Source of the DNA: Candidatus Cloacimonadota bacterium
GTDB taxonomy: Bacteria; Cloacimonadota; Cloacimonadia; Cloacimonadales; TCS61
Reading direction: 5' to 3'
DNA: 64,000 nucleotides
Assembly: GCA_030445745.1 (NCBI GenBank)
Contig: JASUTE010000001.1
Location: 186,001 to 250,000, forward strand
Below, one piece after another: positions 51,055 through 60,878 of the stretch. The position numbers and the translations under genes were made by a program. The notes under the pieces were generated by a model. It was not told the origin of the DNA. It saw nothing but the letters and a program-made list of their open reading frames with translations, and searched no databases. Every line of letters starts with the position of its first letter. Position 1 is the stretch's first letter.

Positions 51055-52167
51055 ATGTTCAGGAAGATAAAAGGGCAAGATAAGGCAATTTCGATATTGA
51101 AGCAAGCGGTTGAGGAAGACAAAATTGCTCAAGCTTATCTGTTCTATGGTCCTAAAGGAGTAGGCAAATTTACTACAGCACTCTATTTTGCTATGGCTAT
51201 AAATTGCTTTGCCGAAGATGATATGAAACCTTGCGGTAAGTGTAGTTCCTGCCAAAAATTCCTGAAATTAAGTCACCCAGATTTAACCTATGTTTTCCCA
51301 TCTCCTTTTAGGAAAGATGATATAGATACAAATGGTAATTTGAAATCGGATAAGAACGACGAAATATATAAAGAATTCCTAAAAAACAAGATTGAAACTC
51401 CCTGGAAAAATTTTTACTTTTCCAGTAATATCGAAATTCGTATACCGTTTATACGGGTTTTAATCCATCATTTAAGTCTTACCGCTAATGAAGCCAGAAA
51501 GAAAGTGGTGATAGTGGAAGATGCCGATATGATGAACACTAACACAGCCAATGCTTTTTTAAAAACCCTGGAAGAACCACCGGTTGATGCGGTGATAATT
51601 TTAACTACCAGCAAGCCCAATTCGCTTTTGCCTACGGTTTTATCTCGCTGCCAAAAAATTCCCTTCTATAGCGTACCCCGCCATCTAATAGAGCAAGAAC
51701 TTAAAGAATCACGTTTTTTGGATGATGTACAGGCCAAGATGTACGCCCGTATTAGTAACGGTAACATGGAAAAAGCTTTGCAGCTGGCAGAAGAGGGCAA
51801 CCTGGAAACGCGTACAGCTACAATTGATTTTTTGAAAATAGTGTTACAGCAGAATGACTATGAATTCCTGCAGTTCATGAGCAAATACCGTACTTCCAAA
51901 AATCAGGCTGAGCTGGCTAACCTTATTTCCTATCTAATAATTTGGCTTAGCGACATTTCCTATTTTAAATATAACCCCGAAAATATGGTGAATTTAGATT
52001 ATGATAAGTTGGTGGAACAGCTATACTTGAGCAACCAGAATGTGGATATCTATGTTCCTAAACTGATAGAATTTTTGGAAAAAATGCTGCGGAAATTGGA
52101 TGGTCATGTTAATCCACAGCTTATTATCACCGAGATCTATAATCGATTTTGTCGGACATTCCAATGA
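51055..52167 (+). CDS. holB: DNA polymerase III delta' subunit
   Basis: 370 residues from the ATG at 51055, one base after the glnS stop; the frame is open further upstream inside glnS but that part is not conserved. AAA+ clamp-loader features: GQDKAISILKQAV, Walker A FYGPKGVGKF, zinc cysteines near CGKCSSCQKF, and sensor 1 region VVIVEDADMMNTNTANAFLK followed by LEEPP and LLPTVLSRCQKI. It helps load the sliding clamp. Its stop overlaps the phoB start (ATGA). Confidence 0.92.
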   Translation: MFRKIKGQDKAISILKQAVEEDKIAQAYLFYGPKGVGKFTTALYFAMAINCFAEDDMKPCGKCSSCQKFLKLSHPDLTYVFPSPFRKDDIDTNGNLKSDKNDEIYKEFLKNKIETPWKNFYFSSNIEIRIPFIRVLIHHLSLTANEARKKVVIVEDADMMNTNTANAFLKTLEEPPVDAVIILTTSKPNSLLPTVLSRCQKIPFYSVPRHLIEQELKESRFLDDVQAKMYARISNGNMEKALQLAEEGNLETRTATIDFLKIVLQQNDYEFLQFMSKYRTSKNQAELANLISYLIIWLSDISYFKYNPENMVNLDYDKLVEQLYLSNQNVDIYVPKLIEFLEKMLRKLDGHVNPQLIITEIYNRFCRTFQ

Positions 52168-52853
52168 AAAATAAGCAAAAGATATTTATCGTAGATGATG
52201 AGCCCGATATTTTGGAATTGGTAGCAATAAATTTAGAAAAAGCCGGCTTCCTAACTTCCAAATACGAAGAAGCGCAACCGATGCTAGATTCTTTGCCAAA
52301 GGAGCTTCCCGATTTAATAATTTTGGATTTGATGCTACCAGATGCTGATGGTTTTGACGTTTGTAAGCAGTTACGAGCAAATTCCCAATATAAAGATATT
52401 CCTATAATTATGCTAACCGCCAAAAGTGAAGAGATGGATAGAGTTTTGGGACTGGAGTTTGGCGCTGACGATTATGTGGTGAAACCATTCTCACCGCGCG
52501 AGCTGGTAGCCAGGGTGAAAGCTATTTTGCGCCGGGGTACAAGCACTGCTACCGAACAATCTATCATCGAGATAGGAGATAGTTTGAGCATAGATACACA
52601 AAAATATGAAGTAAAAGTGCAAAATACCACAGTAAATCTAACTTCTACGGAATTTAAGCTGTTATATCTTTTAGCTAAGCGTCCCGGCTGGGTTTATTCT
52701 CGTAATCAGATATTAGATTACCTGTGGGGTAACGATAAAATAGTGATAGATAGAACCATAGACGTACACATAAGAAATTTGCGCGATAAGCTTGGCATAG
52801 CTGGGAAGATGATTAAAAATGTGAGAGGAGTAGGTTATAAACTGGAGCAATAA
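52164..52853 (+). CDS. phoB: PhoB-type OmpR-family response regulator
   Basis: 229 residues from the ATG at 52164, whose ATGA overlaps the holB stop; a TTG 15 bases upstream is less likely. Receiver: D11-D12, D55 (LIILDLMLPD), T/S and K in VVKPFSPREL. C-terminal winged helix: LTSTEFKLLYLLAKRPGWV, VIDRTIDVHIRNLRDKLG and GVGYKLE, the OmpR/PhoB signature. The downstream porin and pst genes and a Pho-box array identify it as the phosphate regulator. Confidence 0.9.
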   Translation: MKNKQKIFIVDDEPDILELVAINLEKAGFLTSKYEEAQPMLDSLPKELPDLIILDLMLPDADGFDVCKQLRANSQYKDIPIIMLTAKSEEMDRVLGLEFGADDYVVKPFSPRELVARVKAILRRGTSTATEQSIIEIGDSLSIDTQKYEVKVQNTTVNLTSTEFKLLYLLAKRPGWVYSRNQILDYLWGNDKIVIDRTIDVHIRNLRDKLGIAGKMIKNVRGVGYKLEQ

Positions 52854-52941
52854 TCTCCGAGCTAAACTGTTTAAACATTTTGCTTGGTTCATAATTATTT
52901 TAGTTGCGGTTTTATATGGTGTTAACTATCATAACTACAAT

Positions 52942-54165
52942 TTGAATAGCATATTGTTAACAATTGCAATAGTTTTAGTAGCTTTAGTAATTGCCTATTT
53001 TTTTGCACGTAAGATTACCGATCCCTTGCAAAATATTTTTACCAACATAAACAAGATCGCCGATAAAAAATATGCACTTAGCCCTTCAACTTTGCCTATT
53101 TTCAATGAAATAATGCGAGATCTACATGCTATTGCTGCCAGATTGGAAAGAAACCAACAGAAAATTTCCAAACATCGCCAAGGATTTTACACACTGCTGT
53201 CTTCTATCCAGGAATCTATTTGGATAATGAATACCAAAGGCATTATAACTGTTGCCAATGAAAGTTTCGAGAACTTAGTGGGTAATAGCAATCTGAAAGA
53301 TTCCTATTTTTGGAATGTTATTCGCTACAAAATTTTGTACGATTTTATCGATGATATCTTCCACGAGCCCAAAACTACCAGCAGAGAAATAACTATTGAA
53401 AATAGGTACTATATTTGCAGCGCTTCCTATACAGCCCAAACTAAAGAAACTATATTTTTGATGTATGATATTACTGAAATACGCAGCCTGGAAACAATGA
53501 AAAAAGATCTGGTACTTAATGTTTCCCATGAATTGCGTACTCCACTTACATCCATCAAAGGATTTTTGGAAACTATTGAACCCAAAGCAGCTAATCAGAA
53601 ATATATTGATGTGATAAAACGCAACACTGAACGTTTAATTCGCATTGTGCAAGATCTACTGAATCTTTCCAAGCTGGAACAAATGGGTGATTTGGAAATT
53701 GAAAAAATTAACATTGCGGAGTTTGTTGATAATTTGAAGAAAATTTTTGAACTAACTTTAAAGGAAAGTGAAAATGAATTAGTTGTTGAGTGGCCAGCAG
53801 AACTTAAATTTTTGGAAGCTGATTACTTTAAATTGGAACAAGTTTTTATTAATTTATTGGATAATGCCATAAAATATACCAAAGGTGGTAAAATAAAGAT
53901 TCGGTTTTCCCAATTAGAGCAGCATATTTTAATCGAGATAGAAGATAATGGCAGAGGAATTGCACCTGAGCATTTACCGCGTTTATTCGAAAGATTTTAC
54001 GTGGTAGATAAATCTAGAACACGCAAATTAAGTAGTACTGGTTTAGGGCTTTCCATCGTGAAGCATATAGTAAATCTGCATGCTGGTAATATTGAAGTAA
54101 AAAGTAAATTAGGAGTAGGAACGAAGTTTAGTATAACTTTACCAAAGCATTATGAAAAAAAATGA
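52942..54165 (+). CDS. phoR: PhoR-type sensor histidine kinase (true start probably upstream)
   Basis: 407 residues from TTG at 52942, the first conventional start. The same frame is open back to 52834 and encodes what looks like the real N-terminus: RAKLFKHFAWFIIILVAVLY, a first membrane helix, before the second helix LLTIAIVLVALVIAYFFA. No ATG, GTG or TTG exists there, so initiation at CTC/CTG/ATA-like codons behind GGAG (52844) or a sequence error is possible. Following domains: HAMP-like RKITDPLQNI, PAS (84-180), H196 in SHELRTPL, HATPase with N-box INLLDNAIKYT and G2 STGLGLSIVKHI. It is the PhoB partner. Confidence 0.88.
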   Translation: MNSILLTIAIVLVALVIAYFFARKITDPLQNIFTNINKIADKKYALSPSTLPIFNEIMRDLHAIAARLERNQQKISKHRQGFYTLLSSIQESIWIMNTKGIITVANESFENLVGNSNLKDSYFWNVIRYKILYDFIDDIFHEPKTTSREITIENRYYICSASYTAQTKETIFLMYDITEIRSLETMKKDLVLNVSHELRTPLTSIKGFLETIEPKAANQKYIDVIKRNTERLIRIVQDLLNLSKLEQMGDLEIEKINIAEFVDNLKKIFELTLKESENELVVEWPAELKFLEADYFKLEQVFINLLDNAIKYTKGGKIKIRFSQLEQHILIEIEDNGRGIAPEHLPRLFERFYVVDKSRTRKLSSTGLGLSIVKHIVNLHAGNIEVKSKLGVGTKFSITLPKHYEKK

Positions 54166-54655
54166 AGATATTTTTGAAAAATATAAAGGTTTAGTAGTAG
54201 ACATAGCCAATAAATATAAACATCTGGGTCTTCCTATAGAAGATCTCATCCAGGAAGGTATGTTAGGTCTTTTACAGGCTCAGCAGAAATTTAAAGAAGA
54301 AAAAGGCGCTAAGTTTTCCACCTATGCCACCTACTGGATAAAAAAATACATTTTAGCTGCTATAGAAAAAGAAAAAAAAGGCTCTTTGAACTCAATAAAA
54401 TTGGTTGATGAAACGGTAAAAGATGAAAAACAACAAGCTAAATTTGATTCTGATATAAAAGTTAGTAAATTCCTAAAATTAACCGATGATATTCCTGTAG
54501 ATGAACAAAAAGTGCTTAGAATGCTTTATGAAGAGCAATATACTTTAAAAGAGATAGCCGAAGAACTAAATATAAGCCGGGAACGTACCCGCCAACTTAA
54601 AGAAAAGGCACTAAGAAGACTAAGATCTAAAACAAAAAATCAAGAAAATTCATAG
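54152..54655 (+). CDS. Minimal sigma-70 family factor
   Basis: 167 residues. Region 2 (about 7-75) is well conserved: DLIQEGMLGLLQAQQKF and FSTYATYWIKKYI, including the aromatic DNA-melting face. A short linker (76-110, SLNSIKLVDETVKDE) replaces region 3. Region 4 (115-160) has the HTH LKEIAEELNISRERTRQLKEKALRRLR, which is closer to group 1-3 sigma factors than to ECF factors. Regions 1.1 and 1.2 are missing. It overlaps the 3' end of phoR by 14 bases, so it is co-translated with PhoBR. It presumably programs RNA polymerase during phosphate limitation; target promoters are unknown and no anti-sigma factor is adjacent. Confidence 0.88.
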   Translation: MKKNEDIFEKYKGLVVDIANKYKHLGLPIEDLIQEGMLGLLQAQQKFKEEKGAKFSTYATYWIKKYILAAIEKEKKGSLNSIKLVDETVKDEKQQAKFDSDIKVSKFLKLTDDIPVDEQKVLRMLYEEQYTLKEIAEELNISRERTRQLKEKALRRLRSKTKNQENS

Positions 54656-54689: not shown

Positions 54690-54754
54690 ATTACACCATC
54701 TTAACACTTTCTTAACAATAACTTTATAATCACTTAACTCTCCTACCGTAAAAT
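54690..54754 (+). promoter_or_regulatory. Pho-box array and promoter of the porin-pst operon
   Basis: Four six-base boxes recur with exactly 11-base period: TTAACA (54701), TTAACA (54712), TTTATA (54723), TTAACT (54734); a weaker TTACA-containing one lies near 54690. This resembles Bacillus PhoP boxes (TTAACA repeats every 11 bases) and the 11-base spacing of E. coli Pho boxes. TAAAAT at 54749-54754 lies 9 bases after the last box, where PhoB-activated promoters carry their -10. Confidence 0.75.
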
Positions 54755-54786: not shown

Positions 54787-55812
54787 GTGAAAAGAAGTTT
54801 TTTAATTGTTATATTGGTTATGATTGTTATAACATCAACCAATATTAAAGCAGAAACAAAACTTAATATGGAACTTTGGAACCGTTGGACTTACCAGCAA
54901 GTAGACGGTGATGTAACTAAAAACGAAATGGCTGTTAAAAGAGGTTATTTCCGTTTAGAACCACAACTTACCAGTAATGTAAAAGGACGTTTTAATGTAG
55001 ATTTCTTTAGTAATGATGGTAGCCCGGATGGGGCAGGCTTGAAACTGAAATATGCTTACTTAGATTTTAACAATCTACTTCCAATTAATGATGCCACACT
55101 TACCGTTGGTCTTATGAAAACCTATTTTGGAACAATTTACGACTGGAGTTATCCTACTATCGATAAAGATCCTTCCGATAAGTACAATTTCGTTAGCTCT
55201 ACCGATTATGGTATGGGTGTAAGCGGCTACCTTCCCCAAGGCTATGGTTCCTATGCAGTAGCCGTTTACAATGGTGAAGGCTACAAAAAAACCGGTGGCG
55301 ACATTAACACTGATATGAACTATTTGGCTAACCTGCGCGTATCTCCTATCACAGGCCTTACAGTAGGTGGTTCTTATATGTTCAAAAGTAAAAACGATTC
55401 TGATGCAAGCGACCGTGAAGAATACAACATGATAGCCGGAATGGGTAAATTCGCTTTTGGCGCAGCTTCGATTACAGCTCAGTACCTTACTAAAACTACT
55501 TCTTATCCAAACGACAACAGCTTGGACGATGTTTCTGACAGTGTAATTAGTTTAATGCCTATGTACAAACTTAACAATAAATTTGAACTGGTAGCACGGT
55601 ATGACATCTACGATCCAAACACAGACGTTGACGATGATGGTTATAACACTGCTATTGGTGGAGTTAACTATTATTTGGCACGCGATTCAAAAAATAGTCC
55701 TAAACTAATGCTGCAAGCCAACTACCAGCTGAAATCTTATGAAGATGATAATTCTGATGATGAAAGCACTTTGATGGTGCAACTACGCTGGATCTTCTCT
55801 GAAGAGATCTAA
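54787..55812 (+). CDS. Outer-membrane porin-like barrel, phosphate regulated
   Basis: 341 residues starting at GTG behind TAGGAGGAAA. Signal peptide MKRSFLIVILVMIVITSTNIKA, then amphipathic strands throughout (FRLEPQLTSNVKGRFNVDFF, DATLTVGLMKTYFG, FELVARYDIYDPN) and a final strand TLMVQLRWIFSEEI. The layout is like phosphate-selective porins (OprP/OprO-type superfamily), although the arginine ladder was not traced. First gene after the Pho box and 20 bases before pstS, so it is probably the outer-membrane entry for phosphate. Confidence 0.75.
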   Translation: MKRSFLIVILVMIVITSTNIKAETKLNMELWNRWTYQQVDGDVTKNEMAVKRGYFRLEPQLTSNVKGRFNVDFFSNDGSPDGAGLKLKYAYLDFNNLLPINDATLTVGLMKTYFGTIYDWSYPTIDKDPSDKYNFVSSTDYGMGVSGYLPQGYGSYAVAVYNGEGYKKTGGDINTDMNYLANLRVSPITGLTVGGSYMFKSKNDSDASDREEYNMIAGMGKFAFGAASITAQYLTKTTSYPNDNSLDDVSDSVISLMPMYKLNNKFELVARYDIYDPNTDVDDDGYNTAIGGVNYYLARDSKNSPKLMLQANYQLKSYEDDNSDDESTLMVQLRWIFSEEI

Positions 55813-55832: not shown

Positions 55833-56648
55833 ATGATGAAATTTAAAATTTTAGCTATTTTAACCGTATTGGCAGTGTTAGCAGTTCCTGCTTTCGCCCA
55901 AGATAATCGTCTTACCGTTGCTGGTTCCACTACTGTACTTCCAATTGCTCAGGCAGCAGCCGAAGCTTATATGGACATGCATCCAGAGATTAACATCTCT
56001 GTTCGTGGTGGTGGCTCTAGTGTAGGCATAGCTTCTATTATAGCAGGTACAGCCGATATTGGTAATGCTTCTAGGCACGCTAAAACCAAAGAACTGGCAA
56101 CCGCTCGTGAAAATGGTATTAATCTTTATGAAAATGTAGTAGCAAACGATGGTATTGCTGTTGTGGTGAATCCTTCTAACTCTATAAATGGCCTTACAAC
56201 TGCTCAACTCAAATCTATCTACGCTGGTGAAGTACAGAATTGGAAAGAATTAGGCGGTCCCAATAAGCCTATCGTGATTATTTCTCGTGACACCTCTTCC
56301 GGAACTTTTGAAGTTTTCAACAATTTGGTAATGTCAGATTCGCCGGTAGCAGCTGGCGCTTTGAAATTAGCTTCCAATAATGCCGTAGCTACCACAGTTT
56401 CCAACACTCCTGGGGCTATTGGTTATGTAGGCTTAGGTTATCTTAACGCCAGTATAAAAGCAATTACTATAGATAATGTAATGCCCACCAAGAAAACTAT
56501 CCAAAATAAGGAATATCCCATTGCTAGGACTTTGCATATGTACACAAACGGCAAACCAACCGGGTTAGCTAAAAAATTCATCGATTTCATAGTTTCAGCT
56601 AAAGGACAAGAAATAGTTGAAGGACAGGGATTCGTTAGCATAAATTAG
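55833..56648 (+). CDS. pstS: Phosphate-binding periplasmic protein PstS
   Basis: 271 residues with a signal peptide ending in VPAFAQ (no lipobox). PstS signatures: VAGSTTVLPIAQAAAEAY, the phosphate loop RGGGSSVGIASIIAGTADIG, NASRHAK, and ISRDTSSGTFEVF. Both ATG codons at 55833 and 55836 are possible behind AAAAGGAG. It delivers phosphate to PstCA. A terminator follows 18 bases later, so it should be made in excess over the permease. Confidence 0.93.
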   Translation: MMKFKILAILTVLAVLAVPAFAQDNRLTVAGSTTVLPIAQAAAEAYMDMHPEINISVRGGGSSVGIASIIAGTADIGNASRHAKTKELATARENGINLYENVVANDGIAVVVNPSNSINGLTTAQLKSIYAGEVQNWKELGGPNKPIVIISRDTSSGTFEVFNNLVMSDSPVAAGALKLASNNAVATTVSNTPGAIGYVGLGYLNASIKAITIDNVMPTKKTIQNKEYPIARTLHMYTNGKPTGLAKKFIDFIVSAKGQEIVEGQGFVSIN

Positions 56649-56723: not shown

Positions 56724-57587
56724 ATGGATTTCAAAGAGAAAATTTTCCAATCGATTACCTACATCGCCTCGATCTGTACAATAGTATTTCTATTTGGAAT
56801 AATACTGAGTCTGTTTTTTGAAGGATTACCAGTGCTAAATTTCACTTCAATAAAGGACTTTTTATTCAGCAAAGATTGGTATCCTACCATGTTCCCACCC
56901 AAATTTGGAATTTTATCACTTATCGCAGGTTCATTTGTAGTAACTTTAGGTGCTTTGGTTATCTCCATTCCCTTAGGATTAGGAGCCGCCATCTATATTT
57001 CTGAAATTGCCAATAAAAGAGTAAAAGAGATTTTAAAACCGCTAATCGAACTTTTAGCAGGTATCCCTTCAGTAGTTTACGGGTTGTTTGGGATGGCTTT
57101 TTTATCTCCCTTCCTCATCAAAGTTTTTCAAGTACCTATCGGGTTAAATGCTTTTAATGCTTCTATAATTTTAGGAATAATGGTAGTTCCCATAATTTCT
57201 AGTATGTCGGAAGATGCCTTGAGCACAGTTCCCAACAGTTTAAGAGAAGCTTCTTTAGCCTTAGGTGCCAATAAATGGGAAACAATAATGAAAGTAGTGT
57301 TACCAGCAGCCAAATCGGGAGTTATCAGTAGTATAATTCTTGGTTTTGGTCGTGCTATCGGCGAAACAATGGTAGTGCTAATGGTGGCTGGTGGGGCTGC
57401 CCAAATTCCAGATAGTATCTTCGACCCGGTGCGACCAATGCCAGCAACAGTGGCAGCAGAGATGGGTGAAACAGCCATTGGAACTCCTCATTTCCATGCT
57501 TTGTTTGGTATCGCTATCATCCTCTTTATTATAACTTTCATCTCCATTCTGATAATTGAATTCGTAGTTATGAGGAGGAAGAAATGA
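56724..57587 (+). CDS. pstC: Phosphate ABC transporter permease PstC
   Basis: 287 residues, about six membrane helices: SITYIASICTIVFLFGIILSL first, then PLGLGAAIYISEIA, IELLAGIPSVVYGLFGM and the coupling loop LREASLALGANKWETIMKVVLP. Ends in MRRKK. It overlaps pstA by 4 bases (ATGA). AAGGTAGG lies ahead of its start. Confidence 0.95.
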   Translation: MDFKEKIFQSITYIASICTIVFLFGIILSLFFEGLPVLNFTSIKDFLFSKDWYPTMFPPKFGILSLIAGSFVVTLGALVISIPLGLGAAIYISEIANKRVKEILKPLIELLAGIPSVVYGLFGMAFLSPFLIKVFQVPIGLNAFNASIILGIMVVPIISSMSEDALSTVPNSLREASLALGANKWETIMKVVLPAAKSGVISSIILGFGRAIGETMVVLMVAGGAAQIPDSIFDPVRPMPATVAAEMGETAIGTPHFHALFGIAIILFIITFISILIIEFVVMRRKK

Positions 57588-58441
57588 CTAATATTCGTAA
57601 ATTAAAATCGTCCATAGGCATAAATCTTCTCAGATTATTCATTCTGTTAACCGTCTTTTTCCTTTTTTTATTTTTATATGTTATTTTTGCCAAAGGTGGC
57701 AGCGTGGTTAGCTGGGAGTTTCTAACCGAATCGCCCAAGCGCTTTATGACAGAAGGCGGCATTTACCCTGCTATAGTAGGAACATTTTGGCTTACTGTAC
57801 TTTCTATAGGATTTGCTTTACCTTTAGGAATTTTTACAGCTATATTTATGACCAGCTATGCCAAGCCTTACTGGCTGGTACGCATAGTTCGTGTTGCCAT
57901 AAACACTTTAGCTGGGGTGCCATCGATAATTTACGGGCTATTTGGCCTTACTGTATTTGTTCGGTTATTTAATTTCGGTGTTTCCCTACTTTCTGGCGCC
58001 CTAACTCTGGGAGTTTTAGCACTTCCAGTAATAATAAATGCTAGCGAAGAAGCTATTCGTAGTGTTCCGGGAGATTTCAGAGATGCTTCTTTGGCTTTAG
58101 GGGCAACCAAACGTCAGACTATTTTAAGGGTAATTTTGCCAACAGCTCTTCCCAACATACTTACCGGCGCAATTATTAGTATAGGAAGAGTGGCAGGCGA
58201 AACAGCTCCGATAATGTTCACAGCGGCAACCTTCTACACACGTTTGCTGCCAAAATCGGCAATGGATGAAGTGATGGCTCTGCCGTATCACATCTATGCC
58301 CTTATGACAGAAGGCGCTCATCCGGCAAAACAGGTTCCTATGGCCTATGGAACAGCAGTTGTTCTTTTGGCACTAGTTCTGTTGGTAAGTACTGTGGCAA
58401 TTGTAATAAGATATAGAATAAGGAAGAAAAGAAAATGGTAA
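57584..58441 (+). CDS. pstA: Phosphate ABC transporter permease PstA
   Basis: 285 residues with six membrane helices; [20 protein letters not shown] and the coupling loop [22 protein letters not shown] match Pst[23 protein letters not shown] is the typical periplasmic entry. It overlaps pstC by 4 and pstB by 7 bases. Confidence 0.95.
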
Positions 58442-59205
58442 ATAAAACACAAAAAACAGCACATATCTCTACCGAAAACTTGAATTTATGGTTCGATGAC
58501 AACCATGTACTTAAAGATATAAATATTCCAATCTATGATAAAAAAGTTACAGCTATGATAGGTCCTTCTGGCTGCGGAAAATCTACTATGCTACGTTGTT
58601 TCAATCGTATGAACGATCTTATTCCGGGCTGTAAAATAAAAGGGAAAGTAAATCTTTACGACCAGAATATTTATGATAGCAAAGTGGATGTAACCGATGT
58701 TCGCACCAAAGTTGGCATGGTATTTCAAAGACCAAACCCCTTTCCGAAATCAATTTATAAGAATGTAGCTTACGGTTTAAAAGTACGGGGCGAGAAAAAA
58801 GCCAAAATAGATGAATTAGTGGAAAAGAGCTTGAAAGATGCCTGGCTTTGGGATGAGGTAAAAGACAGATTACATGAATCTGCTTTCTCACTATCAGGCG
58901 GACAGCAACAGCGCTTATGCATAGCCCGCGCTTTGGCTAACAACCCCGAGATCCTTCTTCTGGATGAGCCAACCTCGGCTTTGGATCCGCAATCTACCGC
59001 TAAAATTGAAGAGCTGTGTTTGGAACTAAAGAACAAGGTAACGATTCTAATTGTTACCCACAATATAGCTCAGGCCGGTAGAATTTCCGATTACACAGCT
59101 TTTATATTTTTAGGTGAGCTGGTAGAATTTGCCCCAACCAAAGAGATGTTCACTGTTCCTAAAGACAGTAGAACCGAACAATATTTAAGTGGAGCTTTCG
59201 GTTAA
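58435..59205 (+). CDS. pstB: Phosphate ABC transporter ATPase PstB
   Basis: 256 residues. Walker [10 protein letters not shown] at 43-51, [10 protein letters not shown] typical of PstB, Q-loop [19 protein letters not shown], signature [15 protein letters not shown], Walker [13 protein letters not shown], and the switch His in [18 protein letters not shown]. It powers PstCA. Confidence 0.96.
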
Positions 59206-59221: not shown

Positions 59222-59875
59222 ATGCTAAAAGAAGAATTGAATAATTTAAAAAAACAGCTTATTGAAGAATCTATGCTTGTGGAAGAAAACTTGGATCATA
59301 GCTTCAAAGGTTTTTTGGCACATAATGTGCAAAACTTGGACAGAGTTTTCACAATAGAAAATAAGATAGATAAGTTGAACATGAAAATTGAAGAAAACTG
59401 TACCAGTTTAATAGCACTGAAAAGACCTGGAACCAAGAACTTGCGTACCATAATTGCAGTAATGAAAATAAATAACGTGATAGAAAGAATGGGAGATTTG
59501 ACAGTGAATATTGTGAAAAGCTACAAATTCTTACTCGACCATCCCTATCATCGTCCACTTATAGAATTGGCAAGTTTGGCAAAAGAATCTAAGAACATGC
59601 TGAAAAACAGCATAACCTCATTCATAGAAGAAAACGAGGATTTGGCTTTAAATGTATGTAAACAAGATCACAAGATAGATTTGATCCACAAAAAATTCTT
59701 CAAAATTCTTATCAGCGAATCTGACTTGAATATAGCAATAGCTTTTCACTTGAATCGTATTTCCAAAAACTATGAACGTATTTCTGACTTGACGACTAAC
59801 ATTGCTGAATGTTCTATTTACATGATAAGAGGTCATTTAGTAAAGCACTCTGCCTTAGAAACAGGCATTGGCTAA
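59222..59875 (+). CDS. phoU: PhoU-type phosphate signalling protein (first copy)
   Basis: 217 residues, two PhoU three-helix repeats. The repeat signatures RTIIAVMKINNVIERMGDLTVNI and LNRISKNYERISDLTTNIAE contain the paired E...RxxD metal-binding pattern. PhoU links the Pst transporter to PhoR and keeps the regulon off in high phosphate. It lies 16 bases after pstB; its stop lies within the leader of the second pstS. Confidence 0.93.
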   Translation: MLKEELNNLKKQLIEESMLVEENLDHSFKGFLAHNVQNLDRVFTIENKIDKLNMKIEENCTSLIALKRPGTKNLRTIIAVMKINNVIERMGDLTVNIVKSYKFLLDHPYHRPLIELASLAKESKNMLKNSITSFIEENEDLALNVCKQDHKIDLIHKKFFKILISESDLNIAIAFHLNRISKNYERISDLTTNIAECSIYMIRGHLVKHSALETGIG

Positions 59876-59888
59876 ACCAGGAGGTAGT

Positions 59889-60878
59889 ATGAAAAAGTAT
59901 CTTTTACTGTTAGCAGCAGCGCTTGTTATATTTGCCTGTAACAATCGGAACAAGCAAGAAATCTACGGTTTGGGTGCCACCTTCCCGGCTCCACTATACC
60001 AAAAAATGTTCAGTGAATATGAAAAACAAACAGAAGTAAACATAACTTACTCTGCTGTTGGTTCTGGCGCTGGGATCCTGCAATTGCAAAAAGGGCTTAT
60101 TGATTTTGCAGCATCCGACATAATTCCCAAAGATAATGAATTCAAACAAGATATCGTGATGATTCCAACCTGTTTGGGTGCTGTGGCAGTTGCCTATAAT
60201 CTTCCTGCTAATCCATCACTGCGGCTTACTCCCCAGCTGGTAGCAAAGATATTTTTGGGAAAAATAACCACCTGGAACGACCCTCAGCTAAAAAAGATTA
60301 ATCCAAATATTATCTTACCCAATCATCGTATTATAGTAAATCATCGTTCCGACCGCAGTGGTACCAGCGAAATCTTCCATAATTTTTTGAATAAAACCAG
60401 TAAATTATGGCAAGCAGAACAATCAGAAAATTTCGTAGATAAATTCATAGGCTTGAAAGCAACCAGCAACACTGCTGTAGCCGAAAACATTAAACAAACA
60501 CCCTATTCTATCGGATATCTTAGCTCGGCCTACCTGAGCACACATAAACTTTCTGCTGCTGCCATCAAAAATGCTTCTGGCGACTTTGTAAAACCAACCC
60601 CAAGCTCTATAACTAAAGCAGCAGAAAACATAACCGCTTCTGAAATAACCAGCTATATCACTAATTCCAAACAAGGTTACCCAATAAGTAGTTTTACCTG
60701 GCTGCTTGTTCCCAGTAATCTACATAAATATCGCCCGCAAAAAGCTTCTCAGATGATTAACCTATTCCATTGGATGATAACAGAAGGTCAGAGCTATGCT
60801 AAGCAATTGCAATATGCACCGCTTCCCCAGCAAATAATTCCTGAACTGAAAAAAAAGTTAAATAAAATAGGAGAATAA
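59889..60878 (+). CDS. Second PstS-like phosphate-binding protein (lipoprotein)
   Basis: 329 residues from the ATG at 59889 behind AGGAGG; the frame is open 21 bases upstream inside phoU but has no role. A lipobox (LVIFAC, Cys at about 19) replaces the cleaved signal of the first PstS. The fold matches the classical PstS/E. coli type more closely: GLGATFPAPLYQKMF, TYSAVGSGAGI, DFAASDI, VNHRSDRSGTSEIF, ITTWNDPQL. Two different binding proteins suggest different affinities or a link to the second PhoU. Confidence 0.9.
   Translation: MKKYLLLLAAALVIFACNNRNKQEIYGLGATFPAPLYQKMFSEYEKQTEVNITYSAVGSGAGILQLQKGLIDFAASDIIPKDNEFKQDIVMIPTCLGAVAVAYNLPANPSLRLTPQLVAKIFLGKITTWNDPQLKKINPNIILPNHRIIVNHRSDRSGTSEIFHNFLNKTSKLWQAEQSENFVDKFIGLKATSNTAVAENIKQTPYSIGYLSSAYLSTHKLSAAAIKNASGDFVKPTPSSITKAAENITASEITSYITNSKQGYPISSFTWLLVPSNLHKYRPQKASQMINLFHWMITEGQSYAKQLQYAPLPQQIIPELKKKLNKIGE

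Follow-up and report, generated by a model that had tools for sequence, protein, structure and literature searches.

In textbook accounts of PhoBR, a model among two-component systems, transcription relies on the housekeeping sigma factor. E. coli pstS has a four-repeat Pho-box layout, as do the Cloacimonadota promoters described below, and Bacillus subtilis PhoPR has Pho repeats of the same TTAACA type. To our knowledge, neither sigma A nor sigma E of B. subtilis is encoded with phoPR or dedicated to phosphate. PhoB contacts sigma70 in E. coli, and the B. subtilis PhoPR regulator interacts with both sigma A and sigma E (PMC4415409). The nearest precedent for an alternative sigma that needs PhoB is VreI of Pseudomonas aeruginosa (vreAIR, PUMA3), an ECF-type sigma expressed under phosphate starvation. 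Its promoters combine a pho box with –10 and –35 elements, and it binds them only when PhoB is present (PMC4971064). The VreI gene lies next to those of an anti-sigma, VreR, and of a receptor, VreA, at a distance from phoBR, and the targets of VreI are virulence genes.

The window analysed here is a 64,000-nt stretch of a 2.04-Mb Cloacimonadota genome (contig C16:186001-250000) with the gene order glnS-holB-phoB-phoR-sigma, a Pho-box promoter, and then porin-pstS-pstC-pstA-pstB-phoU-pstS2 (Table 1). Unlike VreI, the sigma of this locus is encoded after phoR in the phoBR operon, has no conserved anti-sigma and has the core pst operon as its apparent target; its need for PhoB is predicted. It shares with the E. 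coli system an OmpR-type PhoB and 11-bp direct repeats, whereas E. coli uses its housekeeping sigma and Cloacimonadota encode a separate minimal sigma together with PhoB and have a conserved G at –13 of the –10 element. The earlier note knew of no described pho system arranged in this way, a claim that VreI weakens by its dependence on PhoB and leaves standing in so far as VreI is not encoded with phoBR (PMC4971064). Our own literature search, which was partial in coverage and is weak evidence on this point, found no paper on a sigma gene in a phoBR operon, a pst-dedicated sigma or a Cloacimonadota Pho sigma. The reading that we favor, with a probability of roughly 0.7, is that we are dealing with a Pho-dedicated alternative sigma, which would work with PhoB at Pho-box promoters.

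The locus has the makings of a PhoBR system, with PhoB and PhoR homologues beside pst and an 11-bp direct-repeat Pho box ahead of pst. PhoB scores 255.7 bits against TIGR02154, below the curated equivalog cut-off of 296.2, and PhoR scores 324 bits as PnpS, below the curated cut-off of 400, and 269.7 bits against the PhoR model TIGR02966. Because phoB overlaps the holB stop, it is likely to be cotranscribed with glnS-holB. No ATG, GTG or TTG start for phoR was found near the phoB stop (52853-52945), the first TTG being at 52942; since starting there would cut the first transmembrane segment, CTG 52867 or another rare start seems likely. The porin-like open reading frame has no Pfam match. The same operon region has two full-length phoU genes (59222-59875 and G000:C16:246892-247512) and two PstS types, a duplication also present in several relatives.

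Table 1. Features of the phoBR-sigma and porin-pst operons, in positions of the window
Feature	Position	Strand	Basis
phoB, OmpR/PhoB-family response regulator	52164..52853	+	Pfam Response_reg and Trans_reg_C; TIGR02154, 255.7 bits
phoR, PAS/HisKA/HATPase sensor kinase	52867..54165	+	HisKA, HATPase_c; start uncertain
Minimal sigma factor, 167 aa, regions 2 and 4 only	54152..54655	+	ORF with ATG start; Pfam
Four-repeat Pho box, 11-bp spacing	54701..54739	+	Repeats in register with related loci
–10 element GTAAAAT (family consensus cGTATAAT, G at –13)	54748..54754	+	Footprint over >50 promoters
Porin-like outer-membrane protein, Pho operon gene 1	54787..55812	+	ORF; orthologues before pstS in most loci
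pstS (PstS family 2)	55833..56648	+	TIGR02136, 283 bits
pstC	56724..57587	+	ORF; orthologues in pst operons
pstA	57584..58441	+	ORF; orthologues in pst operons
pstB	58435..59205	+	ORF; orthologues in pst operons
phoU	59222..59875	+	TIGR02135, 151.7 bits
pstS2, second phosphate-binding protein (PstS)	59868..60878	+	TIGR00975, 282.8 bits

The description of the sigma gene in the earlier note holds in each particular. It had seen a 167-residue sigma consisting of regions 2 and 4 only, on which Pfam and the open reading frame agree, starting inside the end of phoR, where we find that the sigma start lies 14 bp inside the phoR frame, and lying directly upstream of a Pho-box promoter, where a four-repeat array follows the sigma stop. 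The repeats are TTAACA (54701-54706), TTAACA (54712-54717), TTTATA (54723-54728) and TTAACT (54734-54739). TTTATAAT at 54723-54730 might be taken for a –10 element, a reading that we rejected: in register it forms the third repeat, and the –10 that is conserved follows ~25 bp further downstream.

Over 50 related loci have this array, with the register unchanged, ahead of porin-pst, aligning as TTAACA at 0 and 11, yTTATA at 22, TTAACA at 33 and, after 8 bases, (c)GTATAAT at 47-53. Over 56 promoters, which are not fully independent samples as they stand ahead of orthologous genes, the –10 element is conserved at G(–13) in 89%, at T(–12) and A(–11) in 100%, at T(–10) in 75%, at A(–9) in 93%, at A(–8) in 86% and at T(–7) in 61%. 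An exact search with a 39-bp gapped form of the Pho promoter gave 38 sites, spread over 32 genomes, and one site with the pattern reversed, and a matrix of the Pho box only gave 93 matches in the collected DNA versus 0 in the same DNA reversed. When the matrix was trained on the porin repeats alone, it found 40 non-porin sites, 30 of which have GTA at the same offset, against a chance of ~2% each. Behind Pho promoters we found pstS2, phoU, a PHP-domain/GT4 protein, secreted proteins that end in a C-terminal sorting signal and, in some genomes, phoB; a few Pho-box sites have CATATAA or CATATAT in place of CGTATAA, for example at L057 and at pstS2 of L210. The PHP-domain/GT4 glycosyltransferase protein (~790 aa), directly behind a Pho promoter in L282, L192 and L154, may be a candidate enzyme for phosphate-free glycolipids, which would fit glycolipid replacement of phospholipid under starvation. 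One genome without PhoB and without the sigma (G120, 96% complete) has a single promoter-like site with the complete Pho layout, upstream of a gene for a secreted protein (L287:3727), possibly a relic or a sign of an assembly gap. This site and the CATATAA or CATATAT variants count against the favored reading.

The G at –13 sets these promoters apart: 50 of the 56 Pho promoters have it, against 5 of 63 candidate sites for housekeeping promoters (TTGACA allowing one mismatch, N17, TA) in the same DNA. In the source genome, the dyads that are enriched ahead of genes combine TTGAC with a T-rich element, not TATAAT, which suggests that the housekeeping –10 of this genome is T-rich, perhaps Bacteroidota-like; since that element appears T-rich and poorly defined, the –10 comparison is noisy and indicative only. 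In the upstream regions of contigs C16 and C33 (L289-L308), TTGA-N20-TTTT occurs 21 times versus 4.3 expected, and the octamer CTTGACTT occurs 10 times versus 0.5 expected. We also considered the weak T at –7 as the mark of a sigma lacking region 1.2 and dropped it, the control giving no clear contrast. Residues Q437, T440 and R441 of E. coli sigma70 read positions –12/–13. Their equivalents in region 2.4 of the Cloacimonadota sigma are K (28 of 28 orthologues), mostly L or I, and a variable residue, and the RpoD of the source genome keeps YATWWIRQAITR (Q/T/R) at these positions; the equivalent of E. coli W433 is Y or F in 27 of the 28 orthologues. Taken as correlations, the promoter and residue data fit a sigma that would be placed by PhoB and have a –10 preference of its own.

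The RpoD holoenzyme might use Pho promoters, given that their –10 is not far from TATAAT. In the strongest competing explanation, PhoB and RpoD would serve porin-pst as in E. coli, and the small sigma would be a product of the Pho response that drives a second set of promoters, in a serial cascade. We regard this as unlikely. The –10 of the window (TAAAAT) is close to the sigma70 type, and E. coli Pho-box promoters use sigma70 (PMC4415409). However, the G(–13)-T-A signature belongs to the very promoters that have a Pho box and seldom occurs at candidate housekeeping sites, and no second conserved class of promoters was identified.

Part of the case for a cascade comes from outside the phylum. 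Starting from two MAGs, L067 and L068, whose titles read Endomicrobiales bacterium and 'bacterium', we reached two further phyla in which the sigma gene is sporadic (5 of 149 and 5 of 147 genomes) and located at phoBR and/or porin-pst; individual MAGs of these phyla may be contaminated. For the phylum to which a Bacteroidales MAG belongs, 296 genomes were sampled, and 0 of 296 had a sigma relative reaching E 1e-28. Several of the sigma genes from the other phyla are uncoupled from phoR and have a Pho-box array of their own instead, 62-224 bp upstream of the sigma start (L068/L250, L247, L249, L244, L245 and L246); a weaker Pho box precedes the gene in L248 and L242. Three of these loci (L247, L249 and L250), which are few cases, have TCTAAT as the –10 of the sigma-gene promoter, whereas the porin promoter in each of these genomes has GTATAA, so the loci in the other phyla may be a relay. 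The Pho boxes ahead of sigma genes also speak for a sigma dedicated to Pho. The coupling of the sigma to phoR in the window reads more like a gate that needs both PhoB and the sigma than like a serial cascade. The two-layer switch with PhoB proposed by the earlier note divides: adjacency, the tracking of PhoB (see below) and the –10 element argue for a dedicated link to Pho, and the shape of the switch is a matter of inference, the serial layer being matched by the Pho boxes of sigma genes in other phyla and opposed by the gate-like coupling to phoR in the window.

Both sigma70 domains of the protein exceed their Pfam thresholds (Sigma70_r2 at residues 7-75, E 3.1e-17, 62.6 bits versus a cut-off of 24; Sigma70_r4 at residues 117-158, E 1.4e-15, 56.9 bits versus 24.1), and Pfam matched neither region 3 nor region 1.2, with nothing between or before regions 2 and 4. 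An AlphaFold2 model with 28 relatives as input has two confident helical domains and a low-confidence linker between them (mean pLDDT 80.5, pTM 0.45, pLDDT <50 at residues 86-104). The regions are joined by 29-42 residues, and regions 2 and 4 with a short linker are shared with group 4 (ECF) sigmas. By sequence, however, the protein is closer to its own RpoD (98.5 bits; 81.5 to a 291-aa sigma) than to its own ECFs (21.1 and 6.7 bits), and RpoD_Cterm is its best model after the superfamily model. It has no region 3, unlike groups 2 and 3, and it appears to lack the adjoining cognate anti-sigma that is common, if not universal, in group 4: across the ~64 loci no conserved neighbor was found beyond the phoBR/pst genes, and so no conserved anti-sigma among the matched neighbors. 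Elsewhere in the source genome, two ECF-like region-2 matches lie on the same strand, ~1.2 kb apart at most, in open frames of ~330 aa (L006/L007, G000:C15:97809-99013).

The missing regions 1.2 and 3 and the coupling of the start to phoR in most genomes would also suit a protein that is no longer a sigma and acts instead as a co-activator or modulator of PhoB/PhoR, whether as a bridge from PhoB to polymerase or as a PhoR-bound antagonist. This is improbable in our estimation, as the polymerase-binding residues of region 2.2 (L32, Q34 and E35 invariant, D31 nearly so) and those of the –35 helix, which is still RpoD-like (E144 and Q148 invariant), are among the most conserved in the orthologue alignment, as for a working sigma, and the best Foldseek matches of the model are sigma70 chains.

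The dedicated link between the sigma and Pho is strongly supported by the adjacency across the phylum, the tracking of PhoB and the distinctive –10. With a profile built from 28 sigma orthologues, we found an orthologue in 64 of 124 Cloacimonadota genomes at 151-240 bits; the remaining matches reached at most 86 bits and were mostly of RpoD size, giving a bimodal distribution. We examined all 64 neighborhoods, that of the window included, and in 59 the sigma gene immediately follows phoR, in the same orientation. The adjacency that the earlier note wished to see checked in relatives is thus conserved, and orthologues away from phoBR, which it had named as grounds for refutation, were not found among the 64. 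The other five comprise three with the sigma beside phoBR in a different arrangement (L057, L059 and L061), one with an insertion between phoR and the sigma gene (L039) and one in which the sigma adjoins pst and phoBR is on a separate contig (L053 and L219). One and the same ORF, resembling an MNT nucleotidyltransferase, follows phoR in two genomes (L039:998-3067 and L185:1-390) and separates phoR from the sigma gene in one of them, which hints that the insertion is a mobile element or a repeat.

Across the phylum, 69 genomes have a PhoB orthologue, and the two distributions track each other: 62 of the 124 genomes have both proteins, 2 the sigma only, 7 PhoB only and 53 neither (Fisher p 1.2e-24). 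In the two sigma-only genomes phoB is cut by a contig end. The seven PhoB-only genomes were considered as losses of the sigma and rejected on inspection: the contig ends inside the sigma gene in G027 and G020, inside phoR in G003, G005 and G104, and 390 nt past phoR in G021, within the same insertion that splits the G030 locus, and in G059 the sigma gene is present with N-masked stretches. Since all seven exceptions come down to contig ends or masked sequence, no PhoB-positive genome is shown to be without the sigma. Chance or hitch-hiking adjacency without a functional link, for which we found no argument, is dismissed, as the arrangement holds over many families of the phylum with this level of co-occurrence and recurs in two other phyla in different surroundings.

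For the Pho-dedicated sigma, we infer holoenzyme formation, use of Pho promoters and dependence on PhoB, and the steps would most probably be as follows. The sigma would be made together with PhoB and PhoR through translational coupling. At low phosphate PhoR would phosphorylate PhoB, which would then occupy all four 11-bp repeats ahead of porin-pst, and likewise at a few other genes, and recruit sigma-bearing RNA polymerase through sigma region 4, and the altered region 2 of the sigma would open the cGTATAAT –10 element. Lacking regions 1.1, 1.2 and 3 and any conserved anti-sigma beside it, the sigma is probably weak alone and dependent on contact with PhoB. A fuller picture, whose odds we put at about even, is that a region-3-less sigma of the phoBR operon runs the core Pho regulon throughout the phylum as an obligate partner of PhoB with its own –10 code, and that a few lineages have a serial relay, with the sigma gene itself activated first by PhoB.

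Because phoBR is almost always followed by the sigma gene and the Pho promoters share a distinctive –10 signal, the little-studied and uncultured Cloacimonadota probably control their phosphate genes with a dedicated sigma of their own, unlike textbook bacteria. With a sigma in the phoBR operon, the two main routes by which bacteria reprogram transcription would be united in one fixed module, and nature would have supplied a minimal system in which to study how a two-domain sigma opens promoters with the help of an activator. The promoter signature, in turn, could allow phosphate-controlled genes to be predicted across this uncultured phylum.
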